A program made the position numbers and the translations under genes. A model generated the notes under the pieces. That model did no database searches. It was not told where the DNA came from and saw only the letters and a program-made list of their open reading frames with translations. Positions 2,504-4,275 of a stretch of 46,153 nucleotides of DNA are shown here, in pieces (within the stretch, counting starts at the first letter, position 1; every line of letters starts with the position of its first letter). The DNA lies in the IMG/VR virus record IMGVR_UViG_3300049460_000147, positions 1-46,153 of that record. One strand, given 5' to 3'. Source of the DNA: a virus.

Positions 2504-3709
2504 TTATGCAGCCTCCTTAAAAGATTCCGGCTCGCCGAGCAAGCGTGACAATTGCGACTGCAGCTTGGAGCGCCACAACTCCGTTTCCGGCTTGACGGAG
2601 CTGGTGATTCCGGGATTCGTCCACCAGATAGGCCATCCCATCAGCCAGCATGTGAACGCCGGGTTCAGTCGCCGGCGCAAGGTCCGGGCGGTCGGCGACA
2701 ATTCCTTGCCATCGATCGTCGAGTGGACCGGGTGCAAAGATGTCGTCAACACCTGGCGTCCCAGCAGCCCATTCACTTCCACGTTGTCCAGTGTCGTCGC
2801 GCCGTCCTTGTAATCCCGCACCGTCGGCGTGGCCCATGAGCAAGCTTGACCCGCCAGCACCAGCCCATGACCATTCCCGTGGGTGGGCGCCATCTTCGTC
2901 GTGCGATTGCTGTTCTCGCTGCTCGTCGGTGTCGCCCATTGCGCCGCGGCAAGTGCCAGCGTCGGCCGCACTGCTGCATTTGGCGAATCGCTCCGGTTCG
3001 TGCGCTCCATTGCATTCGCATCCGGAGTCGCCCACATTTCCGACATCTCGTTGAGATTCGATACACCGTGCCCGCGGGCTCGCATCACCGCAATCTGTTC
3101 CGGCGTCTTGCCGCCCACTGCATCGTGAGCCTGGGGCGTCGCCCACGCGCCAGGCAAGACAGAACCATCGTTCCCGCTGGTGACTTGCACCGACGTCGGA
3201 CGCGCGAATATGCGTCCACTCCGCATTCCACCCGCGGTCGGCCAATTCTCCCAGGACTCGGGAGGCCGCGCGTTCGTCGAGCTCGCCTTCGGTTTCGTCC
3301 ACAACGGAGGCGGTGGCAGAAGCGATGCCTGAGACGTTCTCCAGAATGAGGAACCGCGCACCGCAAGCATCGGCGATGTCTGCGACGTTGAAGAAGAGAC
3401 CTGACCGCCTACCGTTGAGTCCTGCACGCTTGCCGGCGACTGAAAGGTCTTGACACGGAAATCCCGCAATGACGCAATCCACGCGTCCGCGCCATGCTGC
3501 GCCGTCGAACGTGACAAGGTCAGACCAGACAGGCGCTTCATCGAGCGCTCCCGTTTCCATAAGCGCGACAAGTTGGCCGGCTGCACTGGCTTCCCGCTCC
3601 ACGTAACAAACGGTTCGATGCTCGAATCCGATGTGCTTGAATGCGGCGCGGACACCTTCTCCGAGCATTCCGATGCCGGCACACAATTCGATGGAATGTA
3701 AAGCCACAT
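2504..3709 (-). CDS. Overlapping frame: WATP-repeat / LNP..WLMGWP protein
   Basis: A 401-codon frame offset by one base from the methyltransferase, starting at an ATG four bases after the methyltransferase GTG and sharing its AGGAGG. Its product has SSFWRTSQASL, WPTAGGMRSGRI, four WATP units followed by a short variable stretch, and LNPAFTCWLMGWPIWWT near the C-terminus. From memory this combination is a recurring phage protein family found next to C5 methyltransferases; that recollection needs checking. The WATP units are the same DNA as the GDA units of the methyltransferase. It may be a true overlapping gene or a conserved shadow. Confidence 0.35.
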   Translation of the reverse strand: MWLYIPSNCVPASECSEKVSAPHSSTSDSSIEPFVTWSGKPVQPANLSRLWKRERSMKRLSGLTLSRSTAQHGADAWIASLRDFRVKTFQSPASVQDSTVGGQVSSSTSQTSPMLAVRGSSFWRTSQASLLPPPPLWTKPKASSTNARPPESWENWPTAGGMRSGRIFARPTSVQVTSGNDGSVLPGAWATPQAHDAVGGKTPEQIAVMRARGHGVSNLNEMSEMWATPDANAMERTNRSDSPNAAVRPTLALAAAQWATPTSSENSNRTTKMAPTHGNGHGLVLAGQACSWATPTVRDYKDGATTLDNVEVNGLLGRQVLTTSLHPVHSTIDGKELSPTARTLRRRLNPAFTCWLMGWPIWWTNPGITSSVKPETELWRSKLQSQLSRLLGEPESFKEAA

Positions 3710-3713
3710 TCAC
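2517..3713 (-). CDS. C5-cytosine DNA methyltransferase
   Basis: A 398-residue member of the Dcm family. Motif I is ELCAGIGMLGEG (residues 9-20). Motif IV is GFPCQDLSVAGK, with the catalytic Cys in PCQ. Motif VI is ENVSG, motif VIII QRERWF, and motif X GNGVVALQAAVAI near the C-terminus. Between VIII and X lies a Gly/Asp/Ala-rich segment with repeated GDA/GDT/GHAD units in the target-recognition position. It would methylate cytosines in phage DNA and protect it from host restriction. Translation seems to begin at a GTG overlapping the previous stop, after AGGAGG. A second long frame covers the same DNA. Confidence 0.9.
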   Translation of the reverse strand: MNVALHSIELCAGIGMLGEGVRAAFKHIGFEHRTVCYVEREASAAGQLVALMETGALDEAPVWSDLVTFDGAAWRGRVDCVIAGFPCQDLSVAGKRAGLNGRRSGLFFNVADIADACGARFLILENVSGIASATASVVDETEGELDERAASRVLGELADRGWNAEWTHIRASDVGASHQRERWFCLAWRVGDAPGSRCSGRQDAGTDCGDASPRARCIESQRDVGNVGDSGCECNGAHEPERFAKCSSAADAGTCRGAMGDTDEQREQQSHDEDGAHPREWSWAGAGGSSLLMGHADGAGLQGRRDDTGQRGSEWAAGTPGVDDIFAPGPLDDRWQGIVADRPDLAPATEPGVHMLADGMAYLVDESRNHQLRQAGNGVVALQAAVAIVTLARRAGIF

Positions 3714-4147
3714 ACTACCTCCTCTTCTTGTTCTTCAATCCCAAGCTCGCGCTTCGTCTGCGCAAGCAAATCGGCTTCTGTGCCGTACCGCCGTTCAAAC
3801 TCTTCCGGGCCCGCGTGGTACGCAATTCCCCATGAACCGAGGCGATGATGCAAGGCGCACAGCGGGATCACGTCCATATGACTAGAGCGCTGCCCGCCGC
3901 CAGCCAGGAACCGCGGGTGATGCAGTTCGGCCGGCGACTCGCCTAATCCCTCGTTGCGGCAAACAACACAAGTCAGCGCCGCCGTCGCCGCCATATGCGC
4001 CTTCTCAGCCTTGTTCGCAGCGGGGCGCCCCTTCCGCTTAATCCCCCCCGACCTCAACTCTGATCGCCAGTCGGGTTGGTCGGTCGGTGAGCTTTTCCAG
4101 GAGCCGCGCGACATGGGCGTCTTTCGTTGCAATGGCGTCCTTTTCAC
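3710..4147 (-). CDS. Ref-like RecA-dependent nuclease (HNH type)
   Basis: A 145-residue protein with a basic N-terminus (KRTPLQRKTPMSRG), a CVVC zinc pair near residue 75, AELHHP, then IPLCALHHR and YHAGPEEFERRYGTEADLL. This order matches the P1 Ref family (RecA-dependent nuclease), which cuts DNA at RecA-made displacement loops. The GTG at 4147 overlaps the upstream TGA (GTGA) and has GGGTGG before it, so I prefer it to the longer frame. The C-terminus is very acidic. Confidence 0.75.
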   Translation of the reverse strand: MKRTPLQRKTPMSRGSWKSSPTDQPDWRSELRSGGIKRKGRPAANKAEKAHMAATAALTCVVCRNEGLGESPAELHHPRFLAGGGQRSSHMDVIPLCALHHRLGSWGIAYHAGPEEFERRYGTEADLLAQTKRELGIEEQEEEVV

Positions 4148-4275
4148 AGCCACCCCAGCTTGCTTGCGACTGCCAGCCCAATGAACACAACCCACATGCC
4201 GAACGCCACATGTTTAGAGGCGCATCGCATAAAGCAGATCGTCGCAAGGATTGAGAAGTACATTCCGCTGGTCAT
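4144..4275 (-). CDS. Small membrane protein (43 aa)
   Basis: A 43-residue frame with two hydrophobic stretches (MYFSILATICFM and HVAFGMWVVFIGLAVAS). It starts at an ATG that overlaps the upstream stop (ATGA) and ends in GTGA with the Ref-like gene, so it sits exactly in the coupled chain. No family recognised. Confidence 0.55.
   Translation of the reverse strand: MTSGMYFSILATICFMRCASKHVAFGMWVVFIGLAVASKLGWL

Follow-up and report, generated by a model that had tools for sequence, protein, structure and literature searches.

Two long open reading frames lie on top of one another on the minus strand of a contig from a temperate phage, which also carries integrase, RecT, endolysin and tail fibre genes. 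One of them, frame A, encodes a C5 methyltransferase, and the locus raises the question of whether the other, frame B, is a gene as well and, if it is, what part its product plays. We analysed the whole stretch of 46,153 nucleotides (the window) together with related loci. The earlier note on this DNA had described frames of 398 and 401 codons that start four bases apart behind one AGGAGG, and the coordinates agree: the overlap of the two frames is complete, and the AGGAGG precedes the A start (GTG) by 4 nt and the B start (ATG) by 8 nt. The methyltransferase motifs that had been read in frame A were likewise all located.

2517..3713, minus strand: frame A, C5 methyltransferase, proposed alpha subunit, with motifs I-VIII and X; GTG start, 398 aa
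2504..3709, minus strand: frame B, proposed beta subunit, +1 of A; ATG start, 401 aa
3718..3723, minus strand: AGGAGG Shine-Dalgarno, common to the starts of A and B, identified from sequence
3654..3692, minus strand: A motif I, IELCAGIGMLGEG
3441..3482, minus strand: A motif IV, VDCVIAGFPCQDLS
3327..3353, minus strand: A motif VI, FLILENVSG
3162..3188, minus strand: A motif VIII, ASHQRERWF
2559..2609, minus strand: A motif X, NHQLRQAGNGVVALQAA; wA 0.32 in this region (wA and wB are defined below)

The stop codon TGA of the upstream gene (3712-3710) overlaps the start codon of A, and this gene (window 3710-4195, minus strand) is likely to be translationally coupled to A and B. It resembles phrog_1588 (7.4e-34) and has a weak match to a Ref-like RecA-filament endonuclease family (2.5e-06).

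Frame A carries motifs I, IV (PCQ), VI (ENV), VIII and X of a C5 methyltransferase and matches phrog_29583 (1.9e-159) and PF00145 (E 3.8e-25). The Pfam match covers profile positions 3-163 of 324, the front half, and stops after motif VIII; no motif IX is visible in frame A upstream of motif X. Frame A thus does not make a complete single chain with a recognition region and motif IX (codons 195-320 are neutral, as described below). Frame B matches phrog_1008, named 'DNA methyltransferase' (5.6e-14), and phrog_27243 (3.7e-10), and searches of Pfam and NCBIfam with frame B gave no match. All four of the WATP units that the earlier note had seen in B are present. The DNA units behind them (TGGGCGACGCCC, TGGGCGACTCCG, TGGGCGACACCG and TGGGCCACGCCG) differ, and frame A therefore reads GDA, GDS, GDT and GHA there; the note was right that this DNA yields WATP in B, but not that it yields GDA throughout in A.

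We asked whether frame B is coding by counting stop codons. The window gene has 1 stop in the +1 frame of A, where neighbouring codon usage predicts 8.6 (the lowest of 500 draws gave 3), and a stricter within-gene synonymous shuffle gave P=0.027. By itself, this avoidance is suggestive; the relatives are decisive. When the synonymous codons of A were resampled in about 30 relatives, several +1 stops were expected per gene and mostly none was found, apart from three exceptions with 3-6 stops (L029, L035 and L048); ordinary methyltransferases (L060 and L061) had as many +1 stops as chance predicts. Identity of B exceeded that in shuffles preserving the A protein, with z values of 6.6-16.5 in 22 group-1 relatives sharing B by similarity and only 1.1-2.6 in the remote loci L053-L056. 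Synonymous sites of A are also conserved: between L001 and L026, four-fold differences were 0.11, against 0.41-0.54 in flanking genes.

Selection on the two frames was estimated with an OLGenie-like count, giving dNN/dNS for B (wB) and dNN/dSN for A (wA). In the closest pairs wB was 0.06-0.35, and wA was also below 1. Changes at first and second positions are not equally severe, and for this reason the baseline for dNN/dNS without overlap is about 0.77 (39 flanking gene pairs, groups 2 and 3) and not 1; the flanking-gene control of group 1 was set aside, as its gene pairs numbered just 3 and gave odd values (four-fold 0.07, wA 0.87). In group 4, dNN/dNS outside the B open reading frame was 0.73-1.06, and the B signal was confined to the inside of that frame. 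The B start, M(T)WLYIPS, is kept in nearly all group-1 relatives, and in group 3 the B start often adjoins the A start, with a Shine-Dalgarno. Purifying selection thus acts on both frames. We conclude that frame B is a real protein-coding frame and no shadow. The large overlapping gene pair that the earlier note had put forward is borne out by stop avoidance, the conserved start and purifying selection on A and B in relatives.

The strength of selection on the two frames changes along the overlap. We divided it into regions using ten disjoint pairs. Over A codons 1-188 (motifs I-VIII), wA was 0.19 [0.16-0.23] and wB 0.51 [0.42-0.62]. Over codons 195-320, between motifs VIII and X, wA was 1.00 [0.85-1.19] and wB 0.41 [0.34-0.49], and, per site, substitutions that alter A but are silent in B outnumbered the opposite kind 2.45-fold. 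For codons 335-366 (LNPAFTCWLMGWP in frame B), wA was 0.83 [0.52-1.32] and wB 0.37 [0.23-0.55], and codons 366-398 (motif X) gave wA 0.32 [0.22-0.45] and wB 0.59 [0.43-0.84]. B lies below the baseline everywhere in the window group, except for its last 28 codons (0.80) in one analysis. A second group, with different sequences, repeats the division between motif VIII and the C-terminal block (wA 0.97-1.09, wB 0.28-0.54). Since A is neutral and B is constrained past motif VIII, the stretch in which C5 methyltransferases have their target-recognition region is kept as protein by frame B. Each frame stays open even where most of the constraint is on the other. Across 72 group-2 loci, A had 0 stops where its residues are neutral (223-388 expected) and B had 0 stops upstream of motif VIII (65-120 expected); the loci were picked by B, which somewhat biases the B-stop count but not the A-stop count. 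The segments of B are as follows.

3146..3709, minus strand: B N-terminal part, over motifs I-VIII; wB 0.51 against about 0.77 without overlap; conserved start codon
3317-3352, minus strand: SSFWRTSQASLL in the B N-terminal part
3206-3244, minus strand: WPTAGGMRSGRIF in the B N-terminal part
2675..3145, minus strand: putative B target-recognition region, where A is a neutral linker; wA 1.00, wB 0.41
3134-3145, 3023-3034, 2927-2938 and 2825-2836, minus strand: the four WATP units of B
2618..2674, minus strand: putative B motif IX, RRLNPAFTCWLMGWPIWWT, placed by hhalign via in-frame actinophage C termini

Actinophage relatives connect the C-terminal part of B to motif IX. In prophiT46-2 (gp23) and MelBins (gp5), LPTP/WATP units and RLxxxFxEWMMGxPxGxVT, followed by motif X, stand in frame with motifs I-VIII. 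In the Streptomyces phage Sebastisaurus, gp34 holds motifs I-VIII and gp35, a separate annotated methylase gene in +1, holds LPTP units, LSPEFAEWLMGLDPGWVT and IGNGVVPHQA. A profile of 160 B segments aligned by hhalign with the in-frame actinophage C termini at probability 96.7 (E 4.2e-10), and these aligned with canonical C termini at E 7e-4 and probability 26.6, with motifs IX and X in register; all of these E-values are pairwise rather than from a database search. Compared directly with canonical motif IX, B gave a weak match (E 0.11) in an unchanged register. Profile comparison, linked through the in-frame actinophage relatives, thus places LNPAFTCWLMGWP of B as a putative motif IX. The idea that B is an unrelated overprinted protein was given up after the actinophage loci. 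B is not unrelated to the enzyme beneath it; it holds the target recognition and motif IX that are missing from A, a function that the earlier note had not recognised. W[PA]TP-like units number from 0 to 5 per B protein within one group, which might fit a recognition region.

We think it probable, with good confidence, that A is the catalytic (alpha) subunit and B the target-recognition and motif IX (beta) subunit of one C5 methyltransferase. This assignment is based on the regional constraint, the profile placement of motif IX and the in-frame and second-gene forms in actinophages. One Shine-Dalgarno would serve two starts four bases apart, with ribosomes beginning either on GTG to make A or on ATG to make B. 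Alpha would give cofactor binding, catalysis (motifs I-VIII) and motif X, and beta the target-recognition region with its WATP units and motif IX. A would be read through the recognition region solely to reach motif X, its residues there being nearly free to vary, and the constrained N-terminal part of B, over the catalytic region, would possibly dock on alpha. The two subunits would then assemble and methylate cytosines at sites set by B, which presumably shields phage DNA from host restriction. What computation shows is the overlap, the selection on A and B, the way constraint is shared out by region and the motifs that each frame holds; the translation of B, its assembly with A, and the activity and purpose of the pair are what we infer from these data.

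Other explanations account for parts of the same evidence. B might be made but work independently of the methyltransferase, perhaps as a regulator or an anti-defence protein, as might be expected of an N-terminal half that is constrained over motifs I-VIII and has no known homologue. AlphaFold2 models of the window B and of a deeper group-2 alignment were of low confidence (mean pLDDT 54 and 63) and show no methyltransferase domain, which also fits a separate job; Foldseek with these models matched nothing in PDB, and PDB sequence searches with B and B profiles returned nothing credible. Against this, no motif IX can be seen in A and its recognition region evolves neutrally, so these parts must have another source. 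Moreover, some actinophages have the C-terminal units of B in one frame with the catalytic motifs, and in Streptomyces phages these units form an annotated second methylase gene. We regard a separate job for B as unlikely.

The regional alternation, with A constrained over motifs I-VIII, B over the target-recognition region and motif IX and A over motif X, is also what a single enzyme would produce if ribosomes shifted from A to B after motif VIII and back before motif X, yielding one chain and neither full frame. Natural chimeras in a single frame also occur, such as locus L368 described below. The double shift is disfavoured because A and B remain open where the shifted chain would not require it, A over the recognition region and motif IX and B before motif VIII in the 72 loci. 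B is also constrained over motifs I-VIII (wB 0.51) and X (0.59), compared with about 0.77, and its start codon is conserved, and a single frameshifted enzyme is very unlikely. Finally, the earlier note had allowed for a conserved shadow, in which case B would never be made and its family would be out-of-frame readings that are alike only through conservation of the enzyme. The consistent +1 position of B relative to a methyltransferase, in 319 of 320 loci, and the lack of a free-standing homologue are as such a shadow predicts. However, stops are avoided in +1 only, A-silent sites are conserved, wB is below the baseline and the neutral part of A coincides with constraint on B. We reject the shadow on the strength of stop avoidance and the regional pattern of selection, and give it next to no probability.

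The pair is widespread. Translated searches found B-like frames in at least 234 records from phages of Klebsiella, Escherichia, Salmonella, Pseudomonas, Xanthomonas, Paenibacillus and Rhodobacter, in at least 209 from Streptococcus, Lactobacillus and Clostridioides phages, and in at least 40 from Vibrio, Acinetobacter and Mycobacterium phages. In the nine records compared by coordinates, the B match is +1 of the annotated methylase: Haboob, RcKeef, KpV2811, N133, K1G, Javan159, phiCD27, ABMM1 and Lenus. The gene of phiCD27 has 34% G+C, yet B is open there for more than 100 codons. There are at least 320 further loci (240 viral and 80 from bacterial genomes). Among the matches listed, B is +1 of a methyltransferase in 319 of 320; the exception, L368 (1183-1776), is a Firmicutes-type methyltransferase whose front, through a frameshift, continues in frame into the back part of B. 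Free-standing B genes were sought among the same 320 and none was found, and no B homologue (0/320) lies away from a methyltransferase frame, as the earlier note had foreseen for a shadow; its other two signs of a shadow, stops in the B frame of relatives and a lack of purifying selection on B, do not hold, as such stops are strongly avoided and B is under purifying selection. B never occurs apart from A in the loci examined, a point against the two-subunit reading in so far as a subunit might come to stand alone. In Pseudodesulfovibrio (L304, 2435-4251), two C5 methyltransferase genes stand in tandem, the first with an intact overlapping B frame.

Databases name B 'hypothetical', 'DNA methyltransferase' or 'Mte8-like'. 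In four records the annotated gene is frame B and A is unannotated: Acidovorax phage Alfacinha3 gp46 (L001, 2501-3667), where frame B carries the name cytosine-specific methyltransferase, phiKX1 (L002, 2591-3199), Synechococcus phage Ssp-JY39 (L074, 1406-2521) and Vibrio phage 1.291.O (L066, 1501-2199). Two loci carry a single frameshift, L018 (2473-3824), with the front of B and the back of A within one long frame, and L053 (2475-3242), with motif X now in frame B; these exchanges of parts between the frames may be sequencing errors, decay or real recombined forms. In Klebsiella virus KpV2811 (L005, 2072-3430), no stop separates the B frame from a following endonuclease VII domain (PF02945, E 6.3e-24) that is annotated as its own gene, a possible fusion or read-on. 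A further locus (L057, 2814-3353; IMGVR_UViG_3300025679_000110) has an HNH endonuclease open reading frame of 180 codons (PF01844, E 5.1e-13) in another frame within a C5 methyltransferase frame open for 527 codons.

Firmicutes-type genes (group 4) are arranged differently. Their B closes with SLxDILEDEVPEKYFLS shortly past motif VIII, and canonical motifs IX and X are retained in A; the role of B there therefore differs, and our only claim for this group is that B is coding. In its low-G+C members (L315-L394, L059, L063, L064 and L068), B ends in LxDILEDEVPEKYFLSxxK, a segment absent from their frame A and presumably similar to the one that follows motif VIII when a canonical C5 methyltransferase is a single chain.

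We looked in the literature, with subscription papers mostly out of reach, for an overlapping methyltransferase pair found across phages; the only enzymes of two polypeptides that came up were M.EcoHK31I and M.AquI. The small gene of M.EcoHK31I is nested inside the large one in another frame. Its large polypeptide holds motifs I-VIII and X and its small one IX only, and its recognition domain is described in the large subunit (PMC3404938). Compared by description, the window pair resembles M.EcoHK31I (YGGCCR) in having I-VIII and X in A and, through the hhalign chain (4.2e-10 and 7e-4; direct E 0.11), a putative IX in B. It differs in that its recognition region lies in B (wA 1.00, wB 0.41) and not in the large subunit, and in that B has 401 aa and spans all of A. 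M.EcoHK31I is thus the nearest known case, save that the recognition region here lies in beta. M.AquI (CYCGRG) is a natural C5 methyltransferase split after motif VIII, its beta subunit holding IX and X (PMC3404938). The window pair would be split at the same point but has X in A (2559-2609), and no beta holding both IX and X is seen; Sebastisaurus gp34/gp35 resembles M.AquI more closely. The single-chain actinophage enzymes (prophiT46-2 gp23 and MelBins gp5) have the B-like units, IX and then X in one frame with I-VIII, unlike the two frames of the window. B-frame proteins match PHROG 1008, 27243, 26627, 31772 and 16143 and the 'Mte8-like' protein of E. coli phage K1G, in which A and B are both annotated and B begins 88 bases into A, in +1. 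Their annotations go no further than methyltransferase, unknown or Mte8-like and assign them no part in an enzyme made from two frames.

We give about even chances to a reading in which these loci represent a very large unrecognised class of phage C5 methyltransferases, each split over two frames, whose +1 frame makes the recognition subunit and whose A is a neutral linker in that region. In this reading, frameshifts take lineages from the two-frame to the single-chain form and back, and the N-terminal half of B is a protein overprinted on catalytic sequence. Overlapping gene pairs that are long and deeply conserved are seldom recognised in double-stranded DNA phages, and annotation pipelines reject such pairs. 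The A/B pair is found again in hundreds of phages and prophages from Proteobacteria, Firmicutes and Actinobacteria, annotated inconsistently as A alone, B alone or both. If B is the recognition subunit, phage methyltransferases cloned as A alone may be inactive or misassigned, and specificity predictions from A would use a neutral region. The pair would then also be a natural split-enzyme scaffold whose halves are under separate constraint in one DNA.
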